Source: Symbiodinium sp. CCMP2592 (taxonomy: Eukaryota; Sar; Dinophyceae; Suessiales; Symbiodiniaceae). From it: DNA of 64,000 bases. This document shows, in pieces, positions 7,738 to 57,959 of the stretch; positions within the stretch are counted from its first letter, which is position 1; the number at the start of each line of letters is the position of its first letter. Made by a program: the position numbers and the translations under genes. The DNA is taken from positions 1 to 64,000 of the forward strand of contig CAJNDT010003780.1 of assembly GCA_905221615.1 (NCBI GenBank), read 5' to 3'. Below the pieces are notes generated by a model. That model saw nothing but the letters and a program-made list of their open reading frames with translations, made no database searches and had not been told where the DNA came from.

Positions 7738-7751
7738 GAAAATCCCATTTG
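7738..7751 (+). repeat. 14-mer GAAAATCCCATTTG, LINE-A / LINE-B junction
   Basis: First of seven exact copies in the window. It lies between the 3' end of LINE-A and the 5'-truncated start of LINE-B, as expected for a target-site duplication at a preferred insertion site. Confidence 0.85.
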
Positions 7752-10130
7752 AAGGCAATATGCCAGCCGGATGATCCGGCCATCAAAAATTTCGCCCGCG
7801 ACCTAGGTGTCACTTCCGGGGGCACTCGTAGACGGCTGTTAGGTTTAGCGGCAACCAGACAGGCCAAGGCACAAGCCCGTAATAAAAAACTCTGTAGTCT
7901 CAAGGTGCCCTTTGTGTCTCATAAGATTAGGGTGGTCAAAGCTTCAATCATGTCAGCGGGCCTTTGGGGCCATCAGGCCCTTGGGGTGAGCCCCAAGCGG
8001 CGCAAGTACTACCGCGCCATTTGCAGCAAACATGCTGGCCGACAAAAACTAGGATCGGTTGATCTGACTTTTGCCTTGAATCCTGCCAAGTGCGAAGACC
8101 CGACTTTCACCATCATGCGGCAGCATATTAGGGCAGTTTTCCGTGTCTTTAAAAAGTGGCATCGTGAGGATGGGCAAAAATTCGCCAGCACTTGGAACAG
8201 CATTTGGAATCACTTGTCCAAAGCAAAAGATCCTTGGAAGAGAGTCACCGGACCAATTGCTGCCACCCAAGCGTATTTGCTTGAGTTGGGTGTGGAATGC
8301 TCACAGGTGCATCGGTGGCGGCATGCCAAAGGGAACCTTCAGCTTGACTGGACCAATTCTGATGTCATCCGCAGCGGCTGGGAGTGGGTGCATAAATTAC
8401 TGCTACACCAGCAAGGACTTCGCATTGCCCAGCAAGAAGGTTGTGGTTCGCTCGATCAGGGCACTGACTTCACTGTCCACCGCAAGTTGTTGAAGCGCAA
8501 ACATGTTCAGCGAGGTACCCTTAGCAATTTGCATGCGGTCTGGCAAGGAGCGATGGTTTCCTCAGCCAAGCCTGGTTGGTGCAGGCTGTGCCAGTGTCCG
8601 CTTTCCTTGCAACATAATCTTTGGGAATGTCCGTTCATTTGCAAGCAGTTTGATGCCGAGGAGTTTTCCGATTTGAAATCCCAGTACCCTTGGCCTTCAC
8701 TGTGGTTGAGAGGCTTGCCTCCCCTTAGTGAAGTGAGGCATCCCAAACATGCGATTGATCAATGCGGCTTGCAAGTCACGGGACTCTGGCTGACCCAGAG
8801 TACTTTGGAAGGAACTCGATATGTTTTTGCGTGTGATGCTTCTGGAGGACCAGGCGGCTCGGATCAAAGGCTCCTCGTAACGACTTGGTCCATAGGGGCC
8901 TATGCCTTGGTCAATGGGCAGCCGCAACGGGTTGCCAGTGTCACGTGCTTGGAATCGGAGCCTATGACAGTGCCTCAGGCCGAACAGCGAGCACTTTTTG
9001 AATTAATGCAACGTGTCACTGGTGACTTTGATGCCACCACTGACTGCAAAAGTGTCAAGCAAATACTGAGCAAGGCCAACCCGCCGCAGGAAGGTGCTGT
9101 GCCATGGGGCACCGTGTGGCACGAACGCTGTCGCATCCGCTTGCACTGGGTTTCTTCACATAAAAGTGCCGCTTACTTTGAAAAGCAGGGCTGGGAGCAG
9201 TGGAGGCGCCTCATCAACGAAGACGTTGACAAACTCTGTGGGGAAAGGGCTTCTCAGCACTTTTCGGGGGCGCATGCGAAGTGGCTGAAGAAAGTTGATT
9301 CCGTGGTGGAACAAGTCTGCTACTCCTTAGCGCGCCGTGCTGGTTTCATCATACGGCAGAGAAAAAGCCCGGATTTTCCGTGGATTTTGAATAGGGGTGT
9401 TACTGATAATGCCCCTAAGCCCCTGGTTGTCCCTAATGCCGCCTTTGTTAAGCCCAATCCTGCCAAGCCCAAAAATGCAAAAAATCGTAAGTCTAAGACC
9501 GTGGATTCTTGTAATGAACCTAGTCAGTGCCCAAAAAGTGGTAAGCCCTTGAACAAAAAACAACGCATGGTGGAAAAGCTGGCACTGCCTGAAGACCCTC
9601 TGGGTCACCAGTGGGTTAAAGGAGCTGAAGGGCCTACCAACTTGACAATGAAATGCACAAAATGTGGACTGTATGTACAGCAGATTGCTGACCCGGCAAG
9701 TTTCGACCGCCTCATGCAACATCACTGCATAGGCGGTGGTGAAATCTTGAGCGAATGGGGCATTCATGCAACACACAGTATGGTCAACATGGGAGTGCAA
9801 TGGTCTTGTTCCAAATGTGGGAGACTGCAGCGTCCACAGTCGGCCGTTGGAGCAAAGCAGTTGCAGAAACCTTGTGATGGTAGAGCGGCTGTTAGCCAAA
9901 TAGGTAAAGTGGCTCAAGGAGTGGGCAGCTCAACTTTGGGTCCAGTGGGCCCTGCTGTGCCGAAAACCAAAGCTGCTGTTCCTTTTGGGTCCAAACGCGA
10001 AGCTCCTGCAGCTCCAGATGGACCCAAACAAGCCACTTTAAGTTTTGGGCAGCCGGCCGTGGTTGTGACGCCCACAAGTGCCTGCAAACCCAAAGCCAAG
10101 CCACGACAAGCCAAACTGACTTTCTCTTGA
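7752..10130 (+). pseudogene. LINE-B ORF2, 3' part: RT thumb, RNase H, zinc motifs
   Basis: About 792 residues, open from the truncation point to TGA at 10128-10130. The first about 120 residues match the region after RT motif C in LINE-C (shared segments such as RDLGV..GG.RRR and LG.SPKR). The RNase H occupies about residues 355-520: FACDASGG, EQRALFEL, TTDCKS, VSSHKS and NEDVDKLCG. The last third is a low-complexity Lys/Pro linker plus CTKCGLYVQQ and CSKCGRLQ zinc motifs like those of LINE-A and LINE-C. The C-terminus has KQATLSFG and ends in RQAKLTFS. The in-frame start near 7749 is fortuitous; this is a truncated copy and cannot encode a working polymerase. Confidence 0.85.
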
Positions 10131-10659
10131 AGGCCTTGCGGGGCTGGTGTGCTGCTTTAGCGCTCCTCGTAGCTGCTTTAGCGCTACAAGCTTGCGTGCT
10201 TTGGTCCAGCTGGGCCTTCTTGCTTATAATGCTCATGATCCCTCCGTGGTGTGGACATTTCGCATGTTCATACCACTGGGGGTTGTACAGTTCCGCGATG
10301 TACAGGCTGCTGGTAGTTACTCGCTGTGTATAGGCGCTTGCTGCTGCCACGGTTCTAGGAAGAACCTCAAAGTTCTCTTCTGCGAGTCCCTCTTGACGGC
10401 TCTGGGCATCTCCAGTCTGAACTTCTGTGGTGCCAGGTGCAGCTTCGATATGCCTGCATGCCCGTTGATATTCGTGGCATGTCGAAACACTCACCTGTCT
10501 TGCCTACGCTTGGTCCAGAGTCACCGTCCGTGCAACAGCTTTGCCCCGCTACTTTCGAGTGCCGGGGCGAAGCTTCCGTAGACAGGTAGTCTCTGTAGAT
10601 CAGTGTAGCTGTAGTTAGTTTCTGGCCTTGGAGCTGCGACCTTTTTGCCCGCACGGAAA
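10131..10659 (+). other. LINE-B 3' untranslated region
   Basis: No supported coding sequence. It has a short direct repeat (GCTGCTTTAGCGCTcC / GCTGCTTTAGCGCTaC near 10149 and 10171) and ends in GCTGCGAC-N7-CCCGCACGG, matching the 3' termini of the other LINEs, immediately before the 14-mer. Confidence 0.6.
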
Positions 10660-10673
10660 GAAAATCCCATTTG
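10660..10673 (+). repeat. 14-mer GAAAATCCCATTTG, LINE-B / LINE-C junction
   Basis: Exact copy between the LINE-B 3' end and the LINE-C 5' end, which begins GGGCTCAAG. Confidence 0.85.
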
Positions 10674-10952
10674 GGGCTCAAGACGTGGCTCAAACTGGCG
10701 AGTGGACGCTTTGTTGCCGTCGTGGCGCTGGGCTTTTGAGGCCGTACCTAAGTGTGGGCCCCAAAGAGACCCCAAACCCAACCTTGTGTTTTCTCGTAGG
10801 CGGGCTGTCCCGCAAACTCACGGGGGGTAGCGCCATAGGCAACCAGTCCCCGGACTTGGTGCCTTTCTGCTGGTGTTACCAGCTCACTGGTGTAACCAGT
10901 AAGCCTTCCAGCTGACAGGCACCTGGTGTGCCAGGCCAGAGTAACCAGGGCC
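10674..10952 (+). promoter_or_regulatory. LINE-C 5' UTR with spliced-leader relic and acceptor-like site
   Basis: Starts with GGCTCAAG (10675-10682), the last eight bases of the dinoflagellate spliced leader, followed by a partial echo GGCTCAAAC. At 10785-10799 lies TGTGTTTTCTCGTAG followed by G, which looks like a splice acceptor and is identical in LINE-D (23079) and element N (20479). Two perfect hairpins follow (10869-10883, 10886-10900). No conventional promoter motif was recognised. Confidence 0.6.
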
Positions 10953-11909
10953 ATGCCGAAGACAAAGTACCACACGGAGTGTGCCCAGTGCGGCGTGGGC
11001 TGGGTGTGGAAGTCAGAAAAGGCATGGTACCCATGCTGTTGGCACTGCGGTGCGGCCTGGCCAGGGCCAACGCCGCCGCGACAGCCACATACTCAGAGCC
11101 CGGCGCGCAACAGCCAGGAGGACTGGAACAAGTGGCAAGCCTGGGCTCGCCAGGACATGCAGAAGGAACAGAGCTGGTGGGAACGAGCATGGCAGCAGCC
11201 GCGCAGGCCTAAGAAGCAGATGGAGTATCCACCAGGACTGGGATGGACCGGTGCTCACATGACTCCCCAGGAGTACGAGGATGCCGTTGCCAGTCTGTGG
11301 CAGGATGCAGATCCACAGGCCCAAAAGGTCCTTCGAGCTTGTGGCATCGAGCCACCAGAAGATGACAAGAGCGATGACCCGAGGGTCACGTTGCAGAAGT
11401 ACCTTTCGGCCTACAAGTCGATCACCCAGGATCACAGGAACCTGGTGGAGCGCAAAGTGAGGCTGCAGGCGCGAGCTGATAAGATCAAGGCCCAATTTGA
11501 GAAGGCCCTCAAAGACTTGGCCGATGTTTCCAAGGCCATTGAAAAGGCGGAAGACAACTTGGGGAAGGTGCAGAACCAGGTACAGGAGCAGCTGAAAAAT
11601 GCTGAGCCGCCAGAGGCCAAGGAAGTGCATGATCTCCAGGGCCTTTTGAAGGTTGCGGGAGTCGAGCTGTCTGCCACGCAGGAAGGAGCCTTGTCTGCCT
11701 ATCTGCAAATGAGGAAGGAGGAAAGGGAACTTGACATGGACGAGGAGGATGATCAAGATCCTATGGGAAACCTTGGGACCTTTGTTCCCCTGACCTCTAA
11801 CTCCTTCAGTGCCAACTCGGGGTCCCCGTGGACCTTCGGTCCCATGAAGCCCCGAAAGGTTCGCAGCAATCCGATCTCCCGCAATGAAGGGGAAAAAGAG
11901 GAAGACTGA
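10953..11909 (+). CDS. LINE-C ORF1: zinc-ribbon and coiled-coil protein
   Basis: The ATG at 10953 opens a 318-residue frame; the frame is open further upstream, but this is the first ATG. The N-terminus has paired Cys motifs (ECAQCG, then CCWHCG about 16 residues on), typical of a zinc ribbon. Residues about 55-90 are Trp/Gln/Arg-rich. From about residue 150 a long heptad-like region (KIKAQFEKAL, VSKAIEKAEDNLGKVQ) predicts a coiled coil, and an acidic DMDEEDD segment follows before a basic tail. Zinc finger plus coiled coil is consistent with an RNA-binding, self-associating LINE ORF1 protein. It ends in TGA and is in the same frame as ORF2. The LINE-D copy is nearly identical. Confidence 0.8.
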   Translation: MPKTKYHTECAQCGVGWVWKSEKAWYPCCWHCGAAWPGPTPPRQPHTQSPARNSQEDWNKWQAWARQDMQKEQSWWERAWQQPRRPKKQMEYPPGLGWTGAHMTPQEYEDAVASLWQDADPQAQKVLRACGIEPPEDDKSDDPRVTLQKYLSAYKSITQDHRNLVERKVRLQARADKIKAQFEKALKDLADVSKAIEKAEDNLGKVQNQVQEQLKNAEPPEAKEVHDLQGLLKVAGVELSATQEGALSAYLQMRKEERELDMDEEDDQDPMGNLGTFVPLTSNSFSANSGSPWTFGPMKPRKVRSNPISRNEGEKEED

Positions 11910-11927
11910 GACATAGGGCAGGGGGCT

Positions 11928-14900
11928 TTGCTAGGATGGTGGTTGCCATGGTGCCGTCCTGGATGGATCCCCCATGCAGGCCCTTTTCCTCAGCCATGGA
12001 AAATTTTGCGTCACAAGAGCCACAGCCCGGCGACCATTTTGGTCGATGCAGGGTCCTTTTTAAAAGAACAAAAGCTGGTGACACCCAGCGCAACGGTGCA
12101 TCAGCAACAGCAGTTTTGTGCTTTGTGCAGTCAGCCTACCAGCAGGCTGGTGCAAACCAGCGAGGACTGGTGTGCTGCACTCTGGGTGGCGGAAAAACAT
12201 GTCATCCAAAATGTGCAGCCCCTGGTCTGTTCGCCAATTTTGGAACAGTATGCCAAAAAGGCGCACTACCTACGGCAGAAACCGTTTGGGTGGTGTTGCG
12301 AGTCATGCTCTACGTGGGTATGGAAACAGGCGGAAGATATGTGGACTACCGGGACAGGCAGTGGTGAGCCTATACCTGGAGTGTGGCCACAAGTCGGGGA
12401 GGCGGTCATATCTGGAGCCTTGTATTTTCCGGTGGATTTGGAGGAGGACATGGAAAGGGCAGCTTTGGAGGCACCCTTACTTGCCCCCTCACCACCTGGT
12501 GCTCACCAGGCGCGCCCAGAGACCCAGCTGGGGTCCCAGCAACGACCTCCCACCCAGGGAGTCCCAAGCACTCATACCAGGCAAACTCAGCCTGGTGCGC
12601 CTACCAAGGAAAGCTGGTGCCAATTATCCAGCATCCTGAAAGAAGAGCCTCAGCTCTGCATGCAAGCAAAGGAGGCCAAACTTTTGGAATGGATTGCGAC
12701 AAATGAGCACAGTCTAATCCCAGGTACACAGGCGCACAGGGTGGTGTTTCATCTGGTGGAGTGTCTGGAAACCAGAGAAGAGGATACCGTCGGTATTATT
12801 GCAGGCATCGAGGCTCTCAAAGCCTCCGCACCTGGTGTTCCCAACCAGGGCAGTTCGTCAGATACCACACGCAATGCCAGTCAGATAGCCAGGACAAAGC
12901 CAACCAGGAAGGACTGGTGTCGCCTTTCCGACATCCTGGTTCAGGAGCCTGCTGATTGCATGCAGGCCAAATCTGTCCCACTACTGGCGTGGATTGAGGA
13001 GTTTGAGAACACTTTGGAGCCGGAGACTCTAGGCTTCTGGGTTGCGAACCGCATCCCCGAATGTTTGGAGGCAAACGAAGAGGACACCATAGGCATATTG
13101 GCCTGTATTGAAGACCTCAAAATGCAGGTTAACAGCAAGCCCAACCAAGGCACATGCACCATCCTGCAGGCCAACGTCACTCAGTACAGGTCCGAGGTCC
13201 GGCAATGGCTGGTGTCCAACCAGTGTCATGTTGCCTGCCTTCAGGAGACACATGTTGCCCGCGACAAACAGGAAGGCCTGGTTGCAGGCCTGGCAGCCGT
13301 CTCCTTGGACTCTTGGCCGTACCCGGCTGAGGCCACCCAAGGAGGCACCACAGGTGGCCTTGTAACTGTTGCGCAAAGGCATCGGCAAACTAGGCACCTG
13401 CATACCATTGGAGAACAAGGTAAAGGTTGCGTTCTCATTGGTATTAGGTTTCAGGGATGGGAGCTTGCTGTTGGTAATGTGTACCTTGAGTCCGGCAAAG
13501 GACCGGGTGGTGGAGTTAACCCACAAATCCTGGCCGAGCTGGCTGTCACTGTGCAAGAACTCCGTATTCCTTGGATCTTAACTGGAGACTGGAATGTCAC
13601 GCCAGAAGAACTTGTCTCGGCAGGTGTGCTGAGCATGCTCAAAGGAAAGCTGGTGCAACCAGCGGAAGAGACCACCACGCAAGGGTCTCAAATTGATTAT
13701 GCAATAGCCTCTACAGAGATTGCCAGTTGCATCCTAGCTGAAGCTAACTGGGAAGTGCCTTTCAAGCCGCACGCTGCGATCAGCTACACAATCCACAAAG
13801 GAGGCGTATGCTTGCCTGTCCCACAGGCAACCAGGTTCACACCTGAACCTGGTGAAAACCAGGAACAGCCAGACTTAAAAGAAGTCCTGGAAATCACTGC
13901 GATGTTTGAGCCGCCCAATGACCAGCCTGAGCAGGTGAAATGGGGGGCACTGGTCCACGAGTTGGAAGCTCAGACTGGTATGGACCAGCACGGCAGAAGC
14001 TGGTGTTTCCCAGTTAAAAGGGAGCCTCTGGTCCCTCCCACGGCACCCCAGAAACCCTGGAATGGGGGTAAAGTGGCGTAGTGGGAGCGCATGGTGCTAT
14101 GGGTGCGCCAAAAACAGGACAGACCCCTCAAGCCGTCGCAGTTTAAAGTTTTCAAGCGCCAGTTGGGCCAAATGCACCAGTTCTGGGACTCTGACAGCCC
14201 AGACAAACCTGGTGCAATCCAGGCCATGCTTGAAGCCTACATGATTGGACATGACACTGATGTCCAAGTTGTCCAAACGGTACTTCAGAAAGCTAAGGAT
14301 GAAGCCCAAAACTGGAGAGAACAACGGAAACAACAGTACCAAACCTGGTTGGAAAGTGCCTGTGAAGGGGGCCTTCGTGGCCTTTACAAGGCACTGAAAT
14401 CACCGGAAAACGTCCAGGCGCGGCCCTACCGCGACCAGAGTGGGGAAATACGGCCGCATCTTCGCCGTAAAGACTGGAAGCTGGTGTGGGAACCCAGGCC
14501 AGGAAACCAGCCCCAACAAGATCCAGTCTTTGACCAGCTCAAGGCTGGTGCTCTCCGCCAGCTGGAGCAAATAGGACCTCTAAAACAGGAGGAGGTCGCT
14601 GCAGTGCTGAGCAGGATAGCCAAGAAGGCTGTCGGGCCAGACGGCATTTCGGCCCAGATGTTCAGAGCCTTAAACCCTGACCAGGTGGCCCTGGTGACCA
14701 GGGCATTCAGAGACTGGGAACAGAGTGGCTGCATGCCTGAAACAGTGACTATGACCCTCGTCGCCTTGCTGGCCAAGAAAGAGACGGAAGAACGCCCGAT
14801 AGGGCTCACGTCGTATGCTTACCGTGCCTGGTGTAAAACCAGGTATCATCTTTATGATGAATGGTCGAAGCAGTACAAGGCCACAGCACCATGGGACAGA

Positions 14901-17900
14901 GCGGTCAAAGGCCTCTCTTCCCTTGAGGTCGCAGTCACGCGGGTCCTCAAAGGGGAAATGTACCGCCAGAGTGGGAAAACTGGCATTACGCTCCTTCTTG
15001 ACCTTCGTGGCTTTTACGAAAATGTGTCACACGTAGCACTGGTCAAGGCTGCGTTCAAACACAAATACCCATTGCTTCTCCTGCACGGTGCAATGCAGGT
15101 GTATCGCAGTAAAAGGCACCTTTGCGCCGAAAATATGGTCAGTGCGCCAATTGTGGCCACCAAGGGTATCATTGCGGGCTGTCCATTGGCGCCTGGGTTG
15201 TCAAAGCTGATAATGCATGAAGTGGTGGAACCCATTTGGCAAGGGCCACCGAAATGCCATGTCGACTTGTACATCGACGACACTGGCTTTGACATAGCCA
15301 ATCAGGACGCCAAGGTGTGTGCCAACCAAGCATACGTGGTGTGGACCAGGGTAAAGAAGCAATTGGACAAAGCGAAACTCCCGCTCAGTGCAGCCAAAAG
15401 TGCCTGGGTGTGCTCTAACCCAAGGGCAGAAAAGGCTCTAAAAAAGCTCCTGAAGGCAGATGACCCGCAGGTCAAGCCCTTAGCCAAGGACCTAGGCATA
15501 GACAGTGCAGGAGGTAGGCGCAGACGCGTCACCACACACAAGGCCAAGTTCACAAAAGGCGTTAAGAGGCAGCGCCGCCTTGGGCAGCTTGCGCCGCCAC
15601 AGAAGGCGCACACGACTGCAAACAAGCAGGGAGTTTTCGGGGTTGCCCTATACGGGCACGTGGCTCTCGGTCTTGCACCAAAGCGCCTCAAATGGGTTCG
15701 CCATCAGCACGCCAGCGTGCTAGGGAGGATGAGCCTGGGATCCACAGAGGCGGTGATTGAACAAGCCACTAACAAGCACGAAGACCCCACTTACACCATC
15801 ATTAACCAGCATTTTCGCTTCCTGCACAAGCTGCTGGTGGAGTGGAACCAAACGCCGTTCCAAGAACTGGAACAAGCCTTCCAGTACTGGATTCGGAAAG
15901 TCAAGCACCACAAGGAGCCGTGGCGTGTGGTGGCTGGCCCTTTTGTTGGGGCCGCGGCGTGCTACCTTAAAGCCCTTGGATGGGAGGCCCACTCCCTCAC
16001 GGAATGGAAGGCTGGCCAAGAAACCTTTCATATCCTAGATAGGGCTAGCGTACACCGACTCAGTGCGCAACTGAAGCGCACTTGTGACCACTGGCGTTGG
16101 CAGGCCTTGTCTCAAGGGGAGAAAAGTGAAAGCCTTAAAGATGGCATTGAGTGGCACGCCCCGCGCAAAGTGCTCAAAAAGAGCCCCAGCAAGCTCCATC
16201 GCAATGCCCTTGTGGCTGTGTGGCAAGGAGCCATACGGCATGGCAAAGGGGCAGTGTGTGCCCGATGCAACAAGGAGGCTACCTTGAGCCACGTCTTGTG
16301 GGAATGTACCTGGTGGGAAAACCAGGCCACAGAACCTGAAGATTTCCCGCGGCTCCGGGAACAATACCCTGACCCTAGCCTCTGGTTGCGAGGCCTGGGA
16401 CCACCGCAACCCAGACCAGCCACATATGAGCAACAGATCAGGGTGGAAGGCGTCTTTACCCAGCTGCAAGTTGAAGACCCGTCTATCCTTTACGCCACTG
16501 ACGGTAGCCCTGGTGCATCCCAGGATACGCGCTTCCAGGTGCTAACCTGGGGGGCCATTGCTTTTAGGAAGCATGCCCATGGGATAGAGGTTGTAGGTAA
16601 AGCTACAGGCCCGGTTGAAGGTCAGCAAACAGTCTTTAGGGCAGAATCCTCTGCCCTTCTGTTTCTCGCCCAAAAGACAACAGGGCTGATAGACATCACT
16701 TTGGATTGCCAAGGGGTGCCAAAGTGCCTACGCAGGGCACCAGGCTGGAAATCTGAGGACATTTTCCAGGAGTTGCGTCATCAAAAGGACCGCTTGAGCC
16801 TCACATGGGTAAATTCCCACCTCTCCCAGGAGGCTTTCCAGGCCAAATTTGGGCAAGAAAACTGGTGGCGCTGGGAAGCAAACCAGGCGGTCGACAAGCT
16901 GGTGCAACAAGCAGCAAACCAGCGCAGAGACCTCAAATGGGAGCAACAAGTGCTCATCAAAGACGAGGTCGTGAGCCGCATCAATACCTTCCTGGCAAAC
17001 AGAGTGCAGGAACTTTTCCAGTATGGTACTGGTGAAGGACCCCAGGTAGTCTTCCCTGAAACACCTGGTGACAAAAACCAGGAAAAGCCACCCTCTAAGA
17101 AAAAGCCAGGGCCCAAAATCAAGACCAACCTCCAAACCAAAGGGAGGAAAAAGACAACTGGTGACAAACCAGTGCCACCAAGCCAGAGTGAAGGCCCCAA
17201 CAAAAGGCAGCAGCTGGAGGCGCTCCTGGCTGGCCATGGGCCAACCAATGGGCACGAATGGCGGGAAGGGCACCGTAGCAGAGACAACTTGTGTGTCAAC
17301 TGCAACAGGTGCGGACACTTCATCGAACAAGTAGAGTCTAAAGCCGTTTTTGCCAAGAAAATTGGCCACACGTGCAAGTGGATGGAGCCGTCAGCCCCAG
17401 CCATGGGGGAGCATCCGTCGCACAAGATGGTCAATGCAGGCCGCATGTGGGTCTGCTGCAAGTGTGGAGTCCGACAGTGGATCGGACGGCAAGAGCTCTT
17501 CCCGAGCTTAGGGAAACAGTGCAGGCAAGTGTACACGGGCAAGGACCCGGAAATCTTGCAGTGCATTCAAAAGTTCGCACCGCAAAAATCGGGGTTCTTC
17601 AAGGCCCAACAAGCTTTTAAACCTAACAGCCTGCCTGAAGAAGGGGACACGGAAAAGCAAGACGGCTGTAGAGGAAGCAGGGTTGTGCCTAGGAATGTTG
17701 AGGGCGATGGTGATGTGACTGGTGATGCTACTGGTGTTGGTGCCTTTGCTAACCAAGCCTCCAGTAGCAAAGCGAAACCTAAAACCAAGGGTGCCCAAAC
17801 CCGTGCAGCTAGCCAGCCTGTAAAGCAGGCAAACAAGCAAGCCCCAGGAAAGGCCCTCTCCCAACCTAAGCCTTCAGGCCCACCCGAAGCACCTCTCCAG

Positions 17901-18011
17901 GCTCAGTCTCGCAGAACTCTGGTGTGTGACCCCAAAGCAAAGCCCAAGCCGAAAGCTGGTTTAACCAGGCCCCAGAGTGAGGACCCCAAACAGACCAAAC
18001 TGAAATTCTGA
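11928..18011 (+). pseudogene. LINE-C ORF2: endonuclease / RT / RNase H polyprotein with nonsense codon at 14079
   Basis: One frame of about 2000 codons broken only by TAG at 14079-14081, where LINE-D has TAT. The N-terminal part has Cys pairs (FCALC, WCCESC), then two similar modules of about 70 residues (12607-12825 and 12904-13125). The endonuclease follows at about 13160-13790: LQANVTQY, QETH, GDWN, SQIDY and PHAAI. The RT has AVGPDG (about 14630), motif A LLLDLRGFYENV (about 14990), motif B GIIAGCPLAPGLS (about 15167) and YIDD (about 15270). RNase H motifs are YATDGS, RAESSALL, LDCQG, VNSH and EANQAVDKL (16490-16900). The C-terminus has zinc motifs (CNRCG, CCKCG), a Lys/Pro/Ala-rich tail and a terminal KQTKLKF. 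No ATG lies near the start of this frame: it follows the ORF1 TGA in phase, which suggests readthrough or non-AUG initiation. Confidence 0.9.
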
Positions 18012-18058
18012 ATGCAAGTTTGGCTCAGAGCTGGGGAATCGTCCAGCGGGAAATCGCC

Positions 18059-20352: not shown

Positions 20353-20366
20353 GAAAATCCCATTTG
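20353..20366 (+). repeat. 14-mer GAAAATCCCATTTG, LINE-C / element N junction
   Basis: Exact copy. The junction with element N reads CCATTTGGCTCAAG, one T short of the spliced-leader 3' end CCATTTTGGCTCAAG. Confidence 0.85.
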
Positions 20367-24207: not shown

Positions 24208-24225
24208 GACATAGGGCAGGGGGCT

Positions 24226-43665: not shown

Positions 43666-43766
43666 ATCCAAACTTTTGCCATGCTATCCTCCTGCTCTCC
43701 TGAAGCACCGAGAGTTTGCAGTGGTGCTCAAGTTTTTGCTTTTCGGGCTCCTATTTTTTCGACTTG

Positions 43767-49279: not shown

Positions 49280-49416
49280 TGCAAAACTTTGCATCCGTAT
49301 GTATCAGTATATTTTGGCCGGTACTTTTGTAAGTACTTTTGCTTTACGCTTTGAGCTCCGTTGTACAGTGCTGACGCACGACTTTGCAGGCGCTTTTGTC
49401 CGAGCGAAAATTGTCA
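49280..49416 (+). repeat. Copia-2 5' LTR
   Basis: 137 bp, starts TG and ends CA. Differs from the 3' LTR only at one G/A position near 49306. Confidence 0.95.
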
Positions 49417-49428
49417 TGGTAGCGGAGC
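49417..49428 (+). promoter_or_regulatory. Copia-2 primer-binding site
   Basis: TGGTAGCGGAGC directly after the 5' LTR, identical to that of Copia-1, so both families likely use the same tRNA primer. Confidence 0.85.
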
Positions 49429-49556
49429 GCTACGGCGCTCGTAGGGACCTTTGGTTGTTGGGCGTGAGCTTTGGAAGTTCAGGGGCCCAGGCTTGGAAAG
49501 CGTTTGTCTCGACTTGTGTGTTGGGGAACTAGGCTTTGGAAGTCGTAGATTCTCCC

Positions 49557-50651
49557 ATGGCAGATCAATTCGAAGCCGACATGGAAGCACCGCAGCTTCC
49601 TGCTGGCGCTACGGCGGCTGCGGCCGCTCAATCTTCGAATGTTGCTGCGGGCGGTTTGTCTCCTGGTTCTGGGGCCACGCCTGCAGAGCAGCAGTTGGTG
49701 ATGATTTTGGCATCGCTACAGCAGAATCAGCAAGCAATTTTACAGATGATGAGAGAGCAGAGTGAACATCGTTCGCAGGCACAGAGTTCGTTGGAGAGTC
49801 TTCGTGGAAAGGATCTTACGAAGGTCCTGAATGCTCCTAACCCTTTTGATGCGAAGACTAGAGATGAAGAGCTGGCTAAGTGGTCAGCTTGGTCGTGGCA
49901 GTTCGAGTCCTGGCTAGGGACGCTGGATCCGGGATTTGCTTCGGGTATCGATTTGATCAAAGCGCAAGGCGCCAATGAAATGAAGTTTAGCACTTTGAGT
50001 CTGAAGGATCAAGAGAGGTCTCAGTTGATGTTCGGCATCTTGTCCGGACTGTTGCATGAGCGCGGAAAGCGTTTATTGCGATCGATCTCCGATCGCAACG
50101 GCTATGAGGCATATCGATCGTTGCTCGTTGATCTTCTGCCTGGCAGTAGGTCAAGGCTTTTGGCATTGTTGCAAATGATTAACCAATGGCCCTCATTTGA
50201 TGCGCGGCAGGGCTATGCACAGCAAATGATGAAACTAGAGAGCGCATTCACGGAGTATGACTCCCAGAGTGCGAACCCCTTGTCCGAGGACATTAAGATC
50301 GCATGCCTTTTGCGGTGTGTGACTGGCCAACTCAAGCAACATTTGAATGTCGCTGTTACAGACACAACAAAGTATGCAGACCTCCGATCTCTTGTTCTTC
50401 GGTGGGACAATGCTCAGACGCGTTGGGACACTGCAGTTGCTGCTACGTATTCCTTGGGTGATGGTCGTGGTAGTGCAGGACATGGAGTGCAGCCTATGGA
50501 TGTCGATGCTCTTGGTGCTGTAACCTGGAAGGGTAAAGGCAAGGATAAGGGCAAGGACAAAGGAAAAGGCAACAAGGGAAAGACCAAGGAAGGAAAAGGC
50601 AAGCAGCAGAAGGGCAAGGATCACGGAAAGGGAGGATGGAGCAGTCAGTAA
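49557..50651 (+). CDS. Copia-2 Gag
   Basis: An ATG at 49557 gives 364 residues. Ala/Gln-rich N-terminus, then a helical Gag core with NAPNPFDAK, WSAWSWQFESWLG, LLHERGKRLL and ISDRNGYEAYRSL, which resembles the capsid-like UBN2/RVT-Gag region of Copia elements. A Lys/Gly-rich tail (KGKGKDKGKDKGKG) follows. The frame stops at 50651 just before the zinc knuckle, which lies in the +1 frame (CIYCGKRGHWKRDC, about 50695-50736). This may be a programmed +1 gag-pol shift or an indel near 50630. Confidence 0.8.
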   Translation: MADQFEADMEAPQLPAGATAAAAAQSSNVAAGGLSPGSGATPAEQQLVMILASLQQNQQAILQMMREQSEHRSQAQSSLESLRGKDLTKVLNAPNPFDAKTRDEELAKWSAWSWQFESWLGTLDPGFASGIDLIKAQGANEMKFSTLSLKDQERSQLMFGILSGLLHERGKRLLRSISDRNGYEAYRSLLVDLLPGSRSRLLALLQMINQWPSFDARQGYAQQMMKLESAFTEYDSQSANPLSEDIKIACLLRCVTGQLKQHLNVAVTDTTKYADLRSLVLRWDNAQTRWDTAVAATYSLGDGRGSAGHGVQPMDVDALGAVTWKGKGKDKGKDKGKGNKGKTKEGKGKQQKGKDHGKGGWSSQ

Positions 50652-50652
50652 G

Positions 50653-53600
50653 GGCAAGGGCAACAAGAACAATGCGAAAGACCAGAGTGACGTTTGCATT
50701 TATTGTGGGAAGAGAGGCCACTGGAAGAGAGATTGTTTCAAGTTCAAGAGAGATGCGGCGAACGCTATCAAACAGGTTGCTTCTGCGAGTGATGATCAAT
50801 CTACAGCAATCCCAAGTGATGCGGCGTCTACGGCTGCATCGACAGTGACCCCGAGCCAAAGTGCCTCCAACGCTCCCGTGCCCAGGCGAATCCAGATGGT
50901 TTCCAGAATCGATGATTGGTTCGATCTCACCGAGATCGATGATGATGATGGCGAGACTGCAACCTTTTCTGAGAATATCATAGGGTTTGGAGGTTCGCTT
51001 CGGGCCGTGCAGTCTGCGAGCAGTTTCGACATGTCTTTGAGTGCTGAGTGGTACGATCTTTCAAGTGATGATCAGCACGACGGTGAAAGCAATGTGTGGA
51101 GCATTGTGCTGGAGTACAGTGCTTTCGATTTGAGTGCAGAGCATCTTTGCTTGCTTTGCGCAAGGAAGGGCATCGATGATGCCACTCAGGCGGGGATTGG
51201 ATTCCTCGAAGGCTCAGCGCATGAGATTTCAGATGCAGATTTGGTCTCAATGTCAGTGCGTGAGAGTTCAAATGCAGATGCGATTTCCATGTCAGTGCAT
51301 GAGAGTTCAAATGCAGATGCGATTTCCATGTCAGTGCATGAGAGTTCAGATGCAAATGCGATTTCCATGTCAGTGCGTGAGAGTTCTGATGATTCAGTGC
51401 ATGCGTTTGGTGCAAACAGCAACAATGGTTCTCCTGGCTACATTCCTTCACAAGTGATTGCATCAGCGCATGAGAGTGCTTCGGTAGGTCCAGAAGTGAT
51501 GTCGGTACGAGCGGTGACCAAGGTACAACCGATCATTCTGGATAGTGGCGCTGACTGCAGCGCGTTGCCGATGAGCTATGCGCACGTCGGAGTTCCGGAT
51601 GAGAAGGCCACCGCAGGCCTCTTTGTTGATGCGCAGGGTAACCCGTTGCGCACTGCAGGAATCAGGGTTGCTGAGATTCAGATTGGGCGCTTGAAATTCC
51701 GAGAGCGCTTTGTGATAAGTGATGTGACCCAGCCTCTTGTCAGTCTGGGAAAGCTCTATAGAGCTGGATGGTTTGTGGCTCCTCAGGGCGATGGTTTGTT
51801 TCTCACAGATGGAAAGCAGAGTGAGCGTGTGGGGTTCCGCAAGCAGTCGTTGTGCGTTCATGGGACGATCAGAGTCGTCACGGAGTGCGGATCGATCAAA
51901 GCTGTTATGAATGTGGCATTGAAAGATCCGCTGCTAAGGTTAGACAATCGATGGACCAGAATCTCTGCTGGTATGTATGCCGTGATGACCTACTCCAAGA
52001 CGTTCACTGATACAACTCTTATTCCTCTTTCTGAACTTCTCTGGAAGAGGACCACCCTCGTGAGACGAGGCGGGCAGTGGTCAATGGTTGAGTGCAATGC
52101 AGACATTTCGGCCATGAGTGATCGGAGTGCATCGCTTGAAGATCCGGATAGTGTTGAGTATGTCATTACGATTGCCCACAGCAGAGGAAACCCTTCTCCC
52201 TCGGAAATGTGCTTCGAGGTTCTTTCGTTGGATGATTCAGTTCAGGGTGCTGAGGCAGCCGCTTCGGGACCGCAGGAGGAGTTGGGAGGTGCACCGGCTT
52301 CTGAGAATCCGGAGCATTCTGAGCCTTCCGTTGAAGATCGTGATGAGTTGATGCCTCCAGAGTCAATTGAGGTCGATGGTGTGATCATCGACAGCGGTTC
52401 ATCTTTAGAAGTGATGCGAAATGCTTGCAAGGCATTGGGTTTGCCGGAGAACGGGAACAAAGCCCAGATTTTCAAGCGACTGGGAAAGCATTGCATTGAG
52501 CACGAGTTGTTGCAGAGCAAGCACGTGAGCCACACCTTGAAGTCCGAGTTCGAGAGAGTGCCGCGTGGTCAGAGTGCTGCAGAAGAGCCGAGTGAAGCAG
52601 AGAGAGCACAACATGAGCTCACTCATGAGCCTTATCGAGCATGGTGCGCAACATGTGTGGCGCATCGCGCGCGTCAAGATCAGCATGCGAGTGTTGCTGA
52701 TCATGAGGGTTCGTCAGCTACTACAATTTCAATCGACTTCGGGTTTCTCTCGCGAAATGAAAGTGATCAACACAAGCTGACGGTTCTCTTCGCCCACGAT
52801 CGGCACTCCAAGGCTGTTTGTGCAATTCCGACCCCGAGGAAGGGAGGTCAAGCTGCTTTGTCATTCATGAACACCGAGCTGAGCCGATTCATTCTTTGGC
52901 TTGGCTACCCAGCGATCAGACTGAGGTCAGACAATGAGAATAGTGTGGTTGCGGTGGTCGATGCCGTTCGCAAAGTCCTGAGAAACTTAGGAGTGGAGGT
53001 GCACAAAGATTCGGTGCCGATTGATGCTCATCAGGCCAACGGTCCAGTGGAGCAAGCGCTTCAGTCTGTGAGGCAACTCGCATGTACTTTGATGTCGCAG
53101 CTAGAAGTTGGCCTCGGCGCCGAGTCAGGCAAGGTTCTGTTCAACACGAACCATCCAATGTGGCAGTGGGCTGTGTGCCACGCTGCGTGGATCAAGTCAA
53201 GATTCGCTGTGACTCAGGGTTCTACGCCCTATGAGCGGTTGACGGGAAGTTTGTACCGTGGCAAGGTATGCAAGTTCGGTGAAGCAGTCATGGCGTACCT
53301 GAAGCAATCCCCGAAGGCAGCTCCCAAGTGGCAGAAAGCAGTATGGCTAGGTAAAACAGTTGCCAACGATGTGAACATTCTCGGCGTTCCCGACGGTGTG
53401 TTCGTGTCTCGCTCGGTGAGGCGGTTCAGTGACTGCTGGGACCAAAACCTTTCAGCAGAGATCGATACGAATGTTTGGCAACATGGCTTAGCAAGCTTAG
53501 GAGGAACCTTGGTGTTGAACAACAAGAAGCTTACCCCTGCAATCCAGCCGGCAATCCCGTTACCGGTTGAGGCGGGGAAGCCAGATGTGATTGAGGAGGT

Positions 53601-54876
53601 GCCAAGGTCCCCTTCGCAAGTTGCTGCAAGTGATCCTGTGTCGAGTTCGCCATCCGGATCGATGTCCGTTGACTTTCCTGAAGGTGTGCCTGATCTTCAA
53701 GTACCAGCACCTGCTGGCAATGGAACCGAGGCAACTCAGACAATGCAACATGGTGATCAGGGTGATGTGTCCATGCCTTCAGTTCCTGAAACAGTGCAGC
53801 TCAGTGAAAATCCCAAACCTTCGAAGCAGCCCAGACTTCAAACGAGCAGTATCTCCATGATCTCCGCGACGGGGGTCAGCACATCCTTTGATGAGGTGAA
53901 CTTGGTTGTGCCGTGTGAAGAGCTTCCTTGCACTGTTGAGATTCGCAAAGTGACCTACGCGCATGAAGATGAAAGTGTCGAGCTAGCTTTTGATCAGGAC
54001 GCTATCGATGATATGGAGAGCTATGACTACAGCGATTATCATGATGACCAGGTCGGTGACACAGGCGACTTGGATCCAAGGTTGTGCCGTCCGCGGGTGT
54101 CAGATGAAGAACCAGAGTGCACAGAAGAAGAGATGAGAGATTTAGATGCGATTGCGGATCAAATCGAGATCACTCGGTTGAAGAGTATGACGGTGTTGCA
54201 AGATCCAGCCGGAATGGATTTGACAGAAGCGGTTCACCTGACAACCAAGATGGTCAGGACATGGAGACAAAAGGAAGTAGGGAATCCAGCGGTGCCAGTG
54301 TGGTATCGACGGAGTCGGTATGTAGCACGTGAGTTTGCTTGGCTGTCGGAGAGGACCGACTTGTTCAGTCCTGCGAGCTCCAGCCTATGCAATCGTCTAC
54401 TGCCCATTCTCTACATGCACTACAAGGCTAAGGACGATGATGCGAAGATCCCTGACGATGACAAGTTGACGCTGTTCGCCGTTGACATCGGCGACGCATT
54501 TCTCACCGTGCCACAAGTGCGACCGACCTATGTGACCTACGTTCACCCCGATGGGTCCAAAGAGCTCTTCTCCTTAGGGTTCGTTCTCCCGGGACAAAGA
54601 TCAGGGTCGAGTGATTGGTATGATGATTTCATGAAGTTCCTCAAGGGCAACCTGGGTGTCGTCGAGTGCGCAGCGCATCCTTCGCTTGTTAAGTGCACGG
54701 ATCCCGAGAGCAGGTTTGCCATGCAGCTTCATGTTGATGACATGTTAGGGTTTGCAAAGCGGAAGTTTGTGCACGGGGTGTTCATCCCGACTTTGAAGAA
54801 GAAGTACAAGGTGACAGCGCACGTCATTGAGAACATTGGGGATTCCATCGATTTCCTCAAGAGAAACATACTTTGA
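50653..54876 (+). CDS. Copia-2 Pol: zinc knuckle, protease, SAP-like, integrase and RT (5' part)
   Basis: The open frame continues from Gag in the +1 phase. Zinc knuckle CX2CX4HX4C first. Then an acidic linker with four 13-residue repeats (SMSVHESSNADAI type, 51240-51400). Protease ILDSGADCSALP (about 51535). A SAP-like segment SLEVMRNACKALGLP..GNKA (about 52399-52470). Integrase: HELTHEPYRAWCATC (about 52617), SIDFGF, LRSDNENSV (about 52921) and GPVEQALQ (about 53041), then TPYERLTGS. RT: VDIGDAFLTVPQ (about 54481) and LHVDDMLGFA (about 54730). It stops at 54874-54876; loss of one T in the run at about 54870 relative to the expected reading moves the rest to another frame. Confidence 0.85.
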   Translation, partial: GKGNKNNAKDQSDVCIYCGKRGHWKRDCFKFKRDAANAIKQVASASDDQSTAIPSDAASTAASTVTPSQSASNAPVPRRIQMVSRIDDWFDLTEIDDDDGETATFSENIIGFGGSLRAVQSASSFDMSLSAEWYDLSSDDQHDGESNVWSIVLEYSAFDLSAEHLCLLCARKGIDDATQAGIGFLEGSAHEISDADLVSMSVRESSNADAISMSVHESSNADAISMSVHESSDANAISMSVRESSDDSVHAFGANSNNGSPGYIPSQVIASAHESASVGPEVMSVRAVTKVQPIILDSGADCSALPMSYAHVGVPDEKATAGLFVDAQGNPLRTAGIRVAEIQIGRLKFRERFVISDVTQPLVSLGKLYRAGWFVAPQGDGLFLTDGKQSERVGFRKQSLCVHGTIRVVTECGSIKAVMNVALKDPLLRLDNRWTRISAGMYAVMTYSKTFTDTTLIPLSELLWKRTTLVRRGGQWSMVECNADISAMSDRSASLEDPDSVEYVITIAHSRGNPSPSEMCFEVLSLDDSVQGAEAAASGPQEELGGAPASENPEHSEPSVEDRDELMPPESIEVDGVIIDSGSSLEVMRNACKALGLPENGNKAQIFKRLGKHCIEHELLQSKHVSHTLKSEFERVPRGQSAAEEPSEAERAQHELTHEPYRAWCATCVAHRARQDQHASVADHEGSSATTISIDFGFLSRNESDQHKLTVLFAHDRHSKAVCAIPTPRKGGQAALSFMNTELSRFILWLGYPAIRLRSDNENSVVAVVDAVRKVLRNLGVEVHKDSVPIDAHQANGPVEQALQSVRQLACTLMSQLEVGLGAESGKVLFNTNHPMWQWAVCHAAWIKSRFAVTQGSTPYERLTGSLYRGKVCKFGEAVMAYLKQSPKAAPKWQKAVWLGKTVANDVNILGVPDGVFVSRSVRRFSDCWDQNLSAEIDTNVWQHGLASLGGTLVLNNKKLTPAIQPAIPLPVEAGKPDVIEEVPRSPSQVAASDPVSSSPSGSMSVDFPEGVPDLQVPAPAGNGTEATQTMQHGDQGDVSMPSVPETVQLSENPKPSKQPRLQTSSISMISATGVSTSFDEVNLVVPCEELPCTVEIRKVTYAHEDESVELAFDQDAIDDMESYDYSDYHDDQVGDTGDLDPRLCRPRVSDEEPECTEEEMRDLDAIADQIEITRLKSMTVLQDPAGMDLTEAVHLTTKMVRTWRQKEVGNPAVPVWYRRSRYVAREFAWLSERTDLFSPASSSLCNRLLPILYMHYKAKDDDAKIPDDDKLTLFAVDIGDAFLTVPQVRPTYVTYVHPDGSKELFSLGFVLPGQRSGSSDWYDDFMKFLKGNLGVVECAAHPSLVKCTDPESRFAMQLHVDDMLGFAKRKFVHGVFIPTLKKKYKVTAHVIENIGDSIDFLKRNIL

Positions 54877-56396
54877 TCAACAACGATCAACTCCTGCTAA
54901 CCCCGAGCCCAAAACACTTCGACAAGCTGTTTGACCTTTTGTGTGTGAGTGAGAATGCCTCGTGTAAGAAGTCCCCCTACATGCCACAGTTGGACGAGAT
55001 CGATAACAGTCCTGAGTTGAAGAGCGGCGAGGCAACAACGTTCAGGAGTGGAATTGGATTGTTGCTTTACCTGTCAGTTGATCTTCCGGAATGCCAGTGC
55101 GCCATTCGTGCTCTCGCTTCGAGGATGGCACGGCCAACAGTTCACTCCATGCTAGCGCTAAGGCACTTGGCAAAGTACCTCATCGGTGTGAGGTACAACG
55201 GTTTGATGATTGTGAAGACTGATCCCGGTGAAGGGTTGATGGGTCCAAGGACCGATGCGGCAGATCAATCGATTATCCTCGAGAGCTTCAGCGATTCGAA
55301 CTGGGCCGCTTGTAAGGGGTCTAGAAAGAGCGTTAGCGCAAGTGTCATTTGTGTCGCCGGCAACATGTTGTTCAGCTCTTCGAGAACGCAGAGAGTGGTG
55401 GCACTTTCGTCAGGGGAAGCGGAACTTCTTTCGTCAGCGAGCAGCATATGTGATGCACTTTTGATCCGTGAGCTCCTCGAGTTCATGGACTTCGGCAGGG
55501 TGAAGATCTTTCACCACATCGATGCCAGCGCAGCTAAGGCGATGCTGGAACGTTCCGGAGTGGGAAAAGTTCGGCATCTTTCTTGCCGAATCTTATGGTG
55601 TCAACAATTGATTAAATCCGGCGAGGTTGCTTTGCTGAAGATCAGTACTACATTCAATCCGAGCGACCTTGGAACGAAAGGGCTAAGCCGGGCAAGAACA
55701 CTCATGCTGATGTGCATTCTGCGTGTTTGGGACGAGATGTGTGAGTGCTTCGTTGGTTCCCAAGAGCTTCGAGAGGAGAGAGAGAAGCAGAGTTTCAAGC
55801 AGAGCATGAAAGTGATTCGCAACATTCGTGTGCCGATCATGATCTCAAAGAGTGCTTTGCGTGCAATGGTTTCGGCCAGTTTGATTTCGGGTGCAAGCGC
55901 CTTGGGCTTTGGCGGCGGGTTTGAGATGTTCGCGATGCTGTATGCCCTGATGTTTGAAGAGTTCCCGATGATGACGCTCATGATGCTCTATCTCTTCACG
56001 CTGGCGGTGATCGGGACGATCTTGTGCATGCGTCCTCAGTCGACTGTGATTGTGAAGGGCTTTGATAAATCTTTGTGCAGCGGTGAACGCGCCATTGACA
56101 TTTCAAGCCGAGCGAGTTCGAAAGATTCAGCTTCCAGCTCAGTCACCGGTGAGGAGGTGGTGATCAAGCAGAGGCGCAATCGCAAGGTCAAAGAGCCAGT
56201 GAACCCAGTATGGATTGCGGGGGAGTATGGGAAGAAGTATCACATGATTGGGTGTGGCAAGTTGAATGGCTCCTTGGAGGTGAGCGAGATTTCCGAGGAG
56301 GATGCAACCGCGAAGAATTTGAAGCCATGCTCATTTTGCAATCCCCGCAAGGTGTATCATCCTGAAGAGTTTGTTTCGAAGTCAAATACGAAGTGA
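54873..56396 (+). CDS. Copia-2 RT tail, RNase H and C-terminal extension
   Basis: Continues Pol in the -1 frame. The RT end is SPKHFDKLFDLL. RNase H has FSDSNWA, LSSGEAEL, HIDASAAKAM and NPSDLGTKGLS (55285-55690). Beyond the usual Copia end, about 200 more residues follow. They contain two hydrophobic, membrane-like segments (about 55858-55960 and 55965-56030), a Ser/Lys-rich linker, and a metal-binding-like motif with YHMIGCGKL followed by LKPCSFCNP (about 56238-56350). The last part resembles the H-C-x-C-x2-C module seen next to some nucleases. No frameshift within this part. Confidence 0.75.
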   Translation: MINNDQLLLTPSPKHFDKLFDLLCVSENASCKKSPYMPQLDEIDNSPELKSGEATTFRSGIGLLLYLSVDLPECQCAIRALASRMARPTVHSMLALRHLAKYLIGVRYNGLMIVKTDPGEGLMGPRTDAADQSIILESFSDSNWAACKGSRKSVSASVICVAGNMLFSSSRTQRVVALSSGEAELLSSASSICDALLIRELLEFMDFGRVKIFHHIDASAAKAMLERSGVGKVRHLSCRILWCQQLIKSGEVALLKISTTFNPSDLGTKGLSRARTLMLMCILRVWDEMCECFVGSQELREEREKQSFKQSMKVIRNIRVPIMISKSALRAMVSASLISGASALGFGGGFEMFAMLYALMFEEFPMMTLMMLYLFTLAVIGTILCMRPQSTVIVKGFDKSLCSGERAIDISSRASSKDSASSSVTGEEVVIKQRRNRKVKEPVNPVWIAGEYGKKYHMIGCGKLNGSLEVSEISEEDATAKNLKPCSFCNPRKVYHPEEFVSKSNTK

Positions 56397-56586
56397 ATGT
56401 GAGCCCATTGCGTGCATCAAGCTTTACGGTGCACAGGGGTATGAATGTGAGCCCATTGCGTGCATCAAGCTTTACGGTGCACAGGGGTATGAATGTGAGC
56501 CCATTGCGTGCATCAGGCTTTACGGTGCACAGGGGTATGGATGTGAGCCCATTGCGTGCTTCAAGCTTTACGTTGCACAGGGGCAT
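56395..56586 (+). repeat. 48-bp minisatellite, four units
   Basis: Units start at 56395, 56443, 56491 and 56539 (GAATGTGAGCCCATTGCGTG...). The unit length is a multiple of three and two frames stay open, but it follows the Pol stop and is not supported as coding. Confidence 0.9.
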
Positions 56587-56815
56587 GACCGGCATTTTGT
56601 CGTTAAAATTAGCCTTGTACATTGTGGTACATAGACGGCTGACTGTACTTAGCATGTGGAGCATGCGACACTTGAGTACGTAGTTTTCTTCTCACCGGAG
56701 CGTCGTTACACACTCGAGTTTCTGCACTACGATACCGAGCCCAATACTTTTCAGTACAGGTGGCTTTGGAAGTCACAAAGTTTCGAGGAAGAATTGCCAA
56801 GTACGTGGCATTCTT

Positions 56816-56823
56816 AGGCGGGG
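56816..56823 (+). promoter_or_regulatory. Copia-2 polypurine tract
   Basis: AGGCGGGG directly before the 3' LTR, the usual plus-strand priming site. The 230 bases between the minisatellite and this tract hold nothing recognisable. Confidence 0.7.
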
Positions 56824-56960
56824 TGCAAAACTTTGCATCCGTATGTATCAATATATTTTGGCCGGTACTTTTGTAAGTACTTTTGCTTTACGCTTTGAGC
56901 TCCGTTGTACAGTGCTGACGCACGACTTTGCAGGCGCTTTTGTCCGAGCGAAAATTGTCA
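56824..56960 (+). repeat. Copia-2 3' LTR
   Basis: 137 bp, one base different from the 5' LTR. Followed by the ATATC duplication at 56961-56965. Confidence 0.95.
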
Positions 56961-57202
56961 ATATCTCCACTCCCTGCACCACTGGGTGTCGGTTGCGTTA
57001 CCGCGGGTGGCGCAAGTACAGTCAAGAGAAGTGGGAAGAGAAGAAGAACTTGCACCAGCGTGCTTGGGAACTTCTTGGAGGTTTGTTGAAACCGGTTGCT
57101 CGGAGTGAACGCTTGTTGTTGACTCAAGAGTGGCCTCTGCAGAACGACCCTCTGGAAGGACCCGCGGTATCTTCAGGTTGCTTCAGATTTGGGGCTTTCT
57201 GA
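56961..57202 (+). pseudogene. Copia-1 Pol C-terminal piece displaced by Copia-2
   Basis: Directly after the ATATC duplication the Copia-1 frame (phase checked across the insertion) runs on for about 79 codons to TGA at 57200-57202. The peptide is Lys/Glu-rich (KWEEKKNLHQRAWELL) and is the C-terminal tail of the RT-RNase H polyprotein. Confidence 0.7.
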
Positions 57203-57429
57203 GGGTATTGTGGTAGATCGCTGTGCTTACGACTGTGTGTTTAAACGGTGGTACTTTGCCACGAACAGTAAACGCTGGGTCCAAGTGTTTCCTAAAAGGA
57301 ATTGTGACTAAGTGCATGAACATGTACAGGTTGAATTGAAGGATTCAGGGTTCTATCCTGAAAAGCTAGGTCTAGAGCTTGTAAAGTGTGCTCAAAAGAC
57401 ACTAGGTGCCGCATCAGTCCAAGAGGGGG
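57203..57429 (+). other. Copia-1 3' untranslated region with polypurine tract
   Basis: Non-coding. It ends in AAGAGGGGG (57421-57429), the expected purine tract, followed by a single T, the first base of the original LTR. LINE-F sequence begins right after. Confidence 0.6.
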
Positions 57430-57430
57430 T

Positions 57431-57726
57431 AGGTAACCAGCACGGGGCAAAGGCTGCATGCTTTGGTGCTACCAGGACATACAGCACAGTCTGGTGCTAC
57501 CAGGAAGGGGAGCAGACAAAGGACTGCAGGCACCTGCAAGCTGTACAGAGATGAGTGGCATAGAGGTTAGTACCAAGTGGAAAGCCCTTGGTGGACTCGT
57601 CAGTAAGAGCGAGAACGCGAGTCGACTTGTACAGTGCTACTACTCGTCTGTAAGTACAGTTTCTTACGTTTCACCCAAACCTGCCGGCCAATGGCTAGGC
57701 TGCGACTCGCTTCGCCCAAGACGCCA
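57431..57726 (+). mobile_element. LINE-F: 5'-truncated LINE 3' fragment inside the Copia-1 3' LTR
   Basis: About 296 bp with CTGGTGCTACCAG-type units and a 3' terminus (GCCGGCCAATGG, GCTGCGACTCG, CGCCCAAGACG) clearly related to the LINE-C/D end. It lies between base 1 of the 3' LTR (T at 57430) and the 14-mer at 57727, so LTR bases 2-3 (GT) are missing. Its 3' junction is the same as in the main stack. Confidence 0.7.
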
Positions 57727-57959
57727 GAAAATCCCATTTGACCTTGGATGTCCTGATGTTTTCGGCATGCCTGAAGCTGATAGGAGTGCTTTTGAGTTAG
57801 GTCAGTGACTGCACGTTCGTTTCGTCTCGTTTCGTTAGTGCTTGAAGTGTTTTGCTTGGAGACAGACAGCTGCAAGGTGTTTCACTGTCAGTCAGAGCCC
57901 GACGCGACTCCGCTTTGGCTCAAGAAAAAGACCGAGTGCTGGGCGCTCTGTTTTTCACA
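57727..57959 (+). repeat. Copia-1 3' LTR (from base 4)
   Basis: Begins with the 14-mer (57727-57740); its first three bases were separated or lost through LINE-F. Otherwise it differs from the 5' LTR at two positions near its start. Contains TTTGGCTCAAG at 57914-57924. Followed by GCTAC (57960-57964). Confidence 0.9.

Follow-up and report, generated by a model that had tools for sequence, protein, structure and literature searches.

LINEs of several families lie stacked at a 14-bp site in a Copia LTR of Symbiodinium, consistent with site-specific insertion

We analyzed a 64,000-nucleotide stretch of the Symbiodinium sp. CCMP2592 genome (contig CAJNDT010003780.1, positions 1 to 64,000; hereafter the window), in which long interspersed nuclear elements (LINEs) abut the long terminal repeats (LTRs) of a Copia retrotransposon, Copia-1. 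These contacts are marked by a 14-mer, GAAAATCCCATTTG, which occurs at 7738, 10660, 20353, 22952, 32613, 40697 and 57727. All seven copies listed in a previous sequence-only reading of this DNA proved exact, and all lie on the + strand, as do the elements described below. With up to two mismatches allowed, the 14-mer has 9 matches against 0.53 expected, and 9 or more were obtained in 0 of 100 shuffles. Six of the seven copies stand directly 3' of a LINE or LINE-like end, and the seventh forms bases 4-17 of an uninterrupted Copia LTR.

Copia-1 (40694-57959) is a complete LTR element. It has two LTRs that are 99.1% identical, 5-bp duplications GCTAC at 40689-40693 and 57960-57964, and a Copia-type reverse transcriptase (RT; RVT_2 within 46985-49351, Pfam 9.5e-24). 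Next to its 5' LTR comes TGGTAGCGGAGC, which from its appearance we take to be a primer-binding site (PBS). The intact 5' LTR (40694-40929; 236 bp, TGTGAAAAT...TTTTTCACA) holds the 14-mer at 40697-40710 without any LINE and is the empty site that the sequence-only reading had recognized. The internal region extends from 40930 to about 57429, its right limit being approximate. The 3' LTR is present from base 4 on (57727-57959), begins with the 14-mer, is followed by GCTAC and is 99.1% identical to 40697-40929. A further Copia-1 LTR, at 32613-32844, lacks its first three bases, likewise starts with the 14-mer, is 97.0% identical to 40697-40929, and bears a stack of five elements, E1 to E5. When the three LTR copies are aligned, both interrupted ones are broken at base 4, with LINE 3' ends to their left. 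Separately, a second LTR element is nested in Copia-1 (49280-56960), with 137-bp LTRs that are 99.3% identical, ATATC duplications and the same PBS-like TGGTAGCGGAGC. Pfam finds a zinc knuckle, SAP and aspartyl protease weakly in it (below curated cut-offs), and RT was absent from the Pfam results for the three open reading frames (ORFs) scanned.

The window was partitioned into elements by self-comparison and protein scans. E1 (1-7737), of LINE family 1, has an ORF at 360-5657 encoding an APE-type (apurinic/apyrimidinic) endonuclease and RT, and a downstream ORF at 6263-7396. The 14-mer at 7738-7751 is both the right duplicate of E1 and the left duplicate of E2 (7752-10659), a 5'-truncated copy of LINE family 2 that begins in the middle of ORF2 and retains a CCHC motif (about 8580-8630) and an RNase H fold (about 8808-9263). 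The next 14-mer (10660-10673) separates E2 from E3 (10674-20352), a full-length member of LINE family 3 whose 5' end is GGGCTCAAG, the tail of a spliced leader. E3 carries ORF1 (10953-11906), ORF2 (11910-18008, interrupted by a single in-frame stop at 14079-14081) and ORF3 (17981-20068). After the 14-mer at 20353-20366 lies E4 (20367-22951), a 2.6-kb LINE-like element without a recognized coding region, which begins with GCTCAAG directly at the 14-mer. Beyond the 14-mer at 22952-22965, E5 (22966-32612), also full-length and of family 3, starts with TTTTGGCTCAAG, a 12-nt spliced-leader tail, and has uninterrupted ORF1 (23248-24204) and ORF2 (24208-29802, 1865 aa). Thus, all four stacked elements with two ends in the window (E2, E3, E4 and E5) have a 14-mer on the left and on the right. 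The earlier claim that each element in the stack is flanked on both sides holds for these four; for E1 the left end was not identified.

The coding regions place E1, E3 and E5 among the LINEs with an APE endonuclease. Pfam identifies Exo_endo_phos (2.8e-12) and RVT_1 (6.4e-12) in E1; both domains lie within one ORF in E1 and E5, and in E3 within one frame split by the stop. A 26-sequence profile matched L1 ORF2p (2.7e-25) and the L1 endonuclease 1vyb (4.9e-12); L1 ORF2p provides the best solved-structure matches, which do not settle the clade. In the main RT-ORF alignments E1, E2 and E3/E5 are 31-36% identical in protein (33-36% for E1 against E3, with 41% over one 98-residue stretch), which bears out the claim of at least three diverged families. 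The closest Symbiodinium sp. CCMP2592 proteins to E2 are 86-95% identical. A third ORF lies downstream of the RT ORF in E3 (17981-20068, 696 aa) and in E1 (6263-7396, 378 aa); the two are about 25% identical over 216 columns, and neither has a Pfam match. E4 and E3/E5 have only their first ~160 bp in common, at 76-78% identity in alignments that include the 14-mer. Although its 5' end is E3/E5-like, the body of E4 matches nothing elsewhere in the window; P0031 matches E4 weakly (24 residues, E 0.008). E4 is possibly a non-autonomous element mobilized in trans by these LINEs.

The 5' ends also have a feature in common. The dinoflagellate spliced leader ends in CCATTTTGGCTCAAG (according to the available part of PMC6050394), and a leader tail stands next to the left 14-mer in E3, E4 and E5, which are all three elements with an untruncated 5' end in the window. 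None of 100 Markov shuffles contained the 12-mer TTTTGGCTCAAG. The 8-mer GGCTCAAG occurs 11 times in the window against 4.53 per Markov shuffle and is thus common by chance, so that shorter leader tails count by position only. Since the full-length copies start with a truncated spliced leader, the simplest reading of these ends is that trans-spliced mRNAs served as insertion templates. Just downstream of the tail, TGGCTCAA in E3 and E5 and TGGTTCAA in E4 look like an older leader relict. The Copia-1 LTR itself holds TTTGGCTCAAG, 11 nt of the dinoflagellate leader, at 40884-40894, 57914-57924 and 32799-32809, 35 bp before the LTR end, with 0.08 occurrences of this 11-mer expected. Copia-1 RNA may thus be trans-spliced too, the leader having become fixed in the LTR.

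Two interpretations of the 14-mer compete most directly. It could be the target of the LINEs, duplicated upon insertion, or it could be the LINEs' own conserved 3' tail, in which case the LTR would match by chance or because it retains part of an old LINE. The second would account for the 14-mer following all six LINE or LINE-like 3' ends. There is also some 3' conservation upstream of the junction, as GCGAC occurs at -22 to -25 in four of the five distinct 3' ends: E1, E2, E3/E5 and the LINE fragment ending at 57726 (LINE57), with E4 lacking it. This motif was noticed post hoc, and a common 5-mer at like offsets was found in 142 of 50,000 random triples from elements and in 122 of 50,000 from 3' untranslated regions (UTRs). 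It is the only 3' feature that we retain, because a conserved RNA fold was rejected: hairpins can be drawn, with folding energy no better than that of shuffles in five of five ends (z -0.56 to 0.98). The sequence-only reading had objected that a LINE tail does not explain the intact LTR, where the 14-mer occupies bases 4-17 without a LINE and runs on unbroken from the TGT that opens the LTR. The objection stands, and it is joined by others. The last bases before the right 14-mer vary between families, and the 14-mer also lies to the left of E2-E5, including the truncated E2. Compared with P0043, a Symbiodinium sp. CCMP2592 protein, E2 is identical at 181 of 186 aligned residues after the junction, the first of them a leucine whose codon is formed by the final three bases of the 14-mer, and at 5 of 21 before it. 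The figure of 5/21 identities holds for each of the BLAST alignments of E2 with P0039, P0041 and P0043, which continue for 21 columns beyond the junction. E2 is cut off in the middle of ORF2 with a 14-mer on its left, so the 14-mer there is not element-encoded. On the evidence of E2 and the empty LTR we reject the tail interpretation, which is contradicted in the window and has next to no probability in our estimate.

If the 14-mer is a target, the stack might still have grown by other routes. Tandem or segmental duplication, unequal crossing-over between 14-mers, or misassembly would fit the DNA identity of E3 and E5 (96.8%) and their repeat-like spacing. Yet the five stacked elements include different families, the elements to the left of E3 and E5, namely E2 and E4, did not match one another, and E3 and E5 differ by 10 indels (one at the 5' junction) and by substitutions with a synonymous bias. 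Moreover, the junction bases before GCTCAAG are GG in E3 and TTTTG in E5, the 14-mer being followed by GGGCTCAAG in one and TTTTGGCTCAAG in the other. Because these bases differ, E3 and E5 are separate insertions; their segmental duplication was rejected, and growth of the stack by duplication or misassembly is very improbable. A looser specificity is somewhat less improbable, though still unlikely: an endonuclease preferring a short motif, for example TTTTC/A, would often strike an abundant Copia LTR, and stacking would be chance re-use. Only some first-strand specificity is described for LINE APE endonucleases in the available part of PMC6895275, and the cut motif, TTTTCACA, also terminates the LTR on the other strand. 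Against this, the 3' junctions of six of six LINE or LINE-like ends in the window fall on a single shared base, across two separate LTRs and three or more families, and the sister motif TTTTTCACA at the right end of the LTR (32836, 40921 and 57951) is without a LINE in 3/3 cases.

Site-specific LINE insertion at base 4 of the Copia-1 LTR is therefore the explanation that we consider highly probable. The agents would be a dinoflagellate LINE lineage with an APE endonuclease, RT and RNase H. In our model, a bottom-strand nick by the endonuclease at ATTTTC^ACA, at the left end of the LTR, would provide the free 3' end from which a LINE mRNA with a 5' spliced leader is reverse-transcribed. Cutting of the top strand 14 nt away would leave a 14-mer on each side of the new copy, as a 14-bp target-site duplication; 10-20 bp is described as usual for APE LINEs in the accessible text of PMC6895275. 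Both 14-mers would stay intact as targets, and consequently further insertions could pile up. The outcome would be the five elements stacked at 32.6 kb and the one short copy in the 3' LTR of the young Copia. The order of the nicks and the specificity of the enzyme are predictions of this model, as would be a preference for the site genome-wide. No poly(A) was seen at the LINE 3' junctions in the window. The inverted terminal repeat of the LTR, TGTGAAAA/TTTTCACA, contains the proposed nick site. Copia integrase probably requires this repeat, and thus the nick site would stay conserved. As Copia elements are said to rank first in abundance among the retrotransposons of Symbiodinium (PMC5890265, as far as its accessible part goes), the target would also be plentiful.

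We also considered a more far-reaching version, in which a whole dinoflagellate LINE clade is adapted to the integrase-recognized Copia LTR terminus TGTGAAAA, which Copia would have to conserve for its own sake, the leader cDNA end (CCATTTTGGCTCAAG) can pair with a target overhang ending in CCCATTTG, and host trans-splicing thereby supplies the homology for 5' joining. This we regard as rather doubtful. The target end CCCATTTG does resemble CCATTTTGG of the leader, and 377 of the 63,986 14-mers in the window score as well, so that the similarity is suggestive only and the role of the leader in 5' joining is an idea only.

Several observations weigh against site-specific insertion or limit the case for it. 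The window offers two occupied LTRs and one empty LTR only. A six-frame junction protein search for external copies of the LTR or of a junction found none at E <= 10 among 8000 scored candidates, and in the nine viral-contig loci containing the 17-mer, identity to the window at this site does not extend beyond 17-20 nt. The leader tails of E3, E4 and E5 do not count as three independent cases, because these elements have related 5' UTRs. Finally, the insertion at 57727 has an exact 3' junction and lacks the left 14-mer, and at its inferred left junction the TGT start of the LTR was not seen. LINE57 (57430-57726) is a short, 5'-truncated LINE 3' end related to E3/E5; its LINE label is based on the last 56 bp, which are 79-82% identical to E3/E5, and since only these align well its left limit is approximate. 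The preceding AAGAGGGGGT resembles a polypurine tract, in which case the junction would lie right where the LTR begins. The copy is compatible with a 5'-truncated insertion accompanied by a small deletion at the target, and both duplications and deletions are described for the staggered cuts of LINEs (PMC6895275, in the part available). Target-site duplication at a fixed position in the LTR, as the sequence-only reading proposed, explains the 14-mers of the window, with the missing left duplicate at 57727 as the exception. Other searches returned no Rfam match at gathering scores and no relative of the E3 RT ORF in viral contigs, and of four stretches in prokaryote genomes that matched a pattern, 0 were confirmed by tblastn. 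When translated frames of the 14-mer were sought in 55 proteins, the motif was found in 6, by eye in endonuclease or RT stretches rather than at junctions, and these were discarded.

How recently were these LINEs active? When E3 is compared with E5, ORF1 has 34 synonymous and 12 nonsynonymous differences and ORF2 has 112 and 89, respectively, which give ratios of nonsynonymous to synonymous divergence (pN/pS) of 0.09 for the first and 0.23 for the second. Because of these low ratios, their divergence probably arose mostly in functional source copies. Suessiales LINEs are described as ancient, non-active remnants in the portions of PMC8045281 and PMC10235124 at hand, and some recent LINE activity is reported in those of PMC5890265 and, for S. 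tridacnidorum, PMC8045281. Judging from the copies in the window and the insertion into a pair of Copia LTRs that are 99.1% identical, we side with recent activity of this lineage.

Comparison with known systems shows both likeness and difference. R1 makes a 14-bp duplication and carries a CCHC motif after the RT. Its clade (R1, TRAS and SART, with rDNA or telomere-repeat targets) and the window LINEs have in common an APE endonuclease, an RT, a fixed target and a small duplication. The LINEs studied here also have an RNase H fold downstream of the RT, and RNase H is reported in the I group including R1 (PMC4640811, accessible part). They differ from this clade in that their target is the end of a Copia LTR and in that their 5' ends carry the spliced leader. 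In the Tx1 clade, Xenopus Tx1L sits in the Tx1D DNA transposon. Tx1L is likewise a target-specific APE LINE, a known kind of element for which transposons are among the listed target classes (same part of PMC4640811). Unlike Tx1L, the LINEs of the window have an LTR retrotransposon terminus as target, possess an RNase H fold, and form a mixed stack of several families. SLACS inserts in the leader gene. With SLACS, CRE and NeSL the window LINEs share spliced-leader involvement and site specificity; leader exons are a listed target class, and the endonuclease of the CRE and NeSL clades is of the restriction-like kind (again from the accessible PMC4640811 text), whereas the LINEs here are APE-type. 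Furthermore, the leader is found at their own 5' end, and they are inserted at the Copia-1 LTR start rather than into spliced-leader RNA genes. In Zepp and other nested LINE arrays, LINEs are inserted into or beside one another; the stack differs from these by its fixed 14-bp target inside an LTR and its several families. SymbioLINE-Dnmt and other Symbiodinium LINEs come from the same host group and likewise have an ORF upstream of the RT ORF (PMC5890265, as far as available), but unlike SymbioLINE-Dnmt, the scanned E3/E5 ORFs contain no DNA methyltransferase (DNMT) by Pfam. The literature searched, whose coverage was partial and in which absence is weak evidence, yielded neither a LINE family specific for an LTR nor spliced-leader ends on LINEs, and mentioned no site specificity for Symbiodinium LINEs. 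Within that coverage, we met no case of three or more diverged LINE families that have an LTR end as their target and carry the spliced leader at their 5' ends.

The rest of the window adds some further features. The stretch between the stacked LTR and Copia-1 is without LINE matches. It contains two 1.9-kb repeats that are 96% identical (33224-35137 and 37252-39149), within which shorter GTGGGTTCCC-type repeats of 42 bp and 205 bp occur. A tandem duplication of 492 bp lies at 36272-37256. Downstream of Copia-1, an ORF at 59504-61267 resembles a major-facilitator transporter (Pfam MFS_1, 1.5e-26).

If our interpretation is correct, the Copia LTR would be a safe haven of one retroelement on another, in which LINEs regenerate their own target and live at base pairs that are probably under stronger constraint than any others in a multicopy LTR element. 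The arrangement bears on how LINE 5' ends are joined, since the leader ends vary from one copy to the next, and on whether the LINEs of Symbiodinium are ancient remnants or partly active. It also bears on the effect that LINEs may have on Copia copy number.

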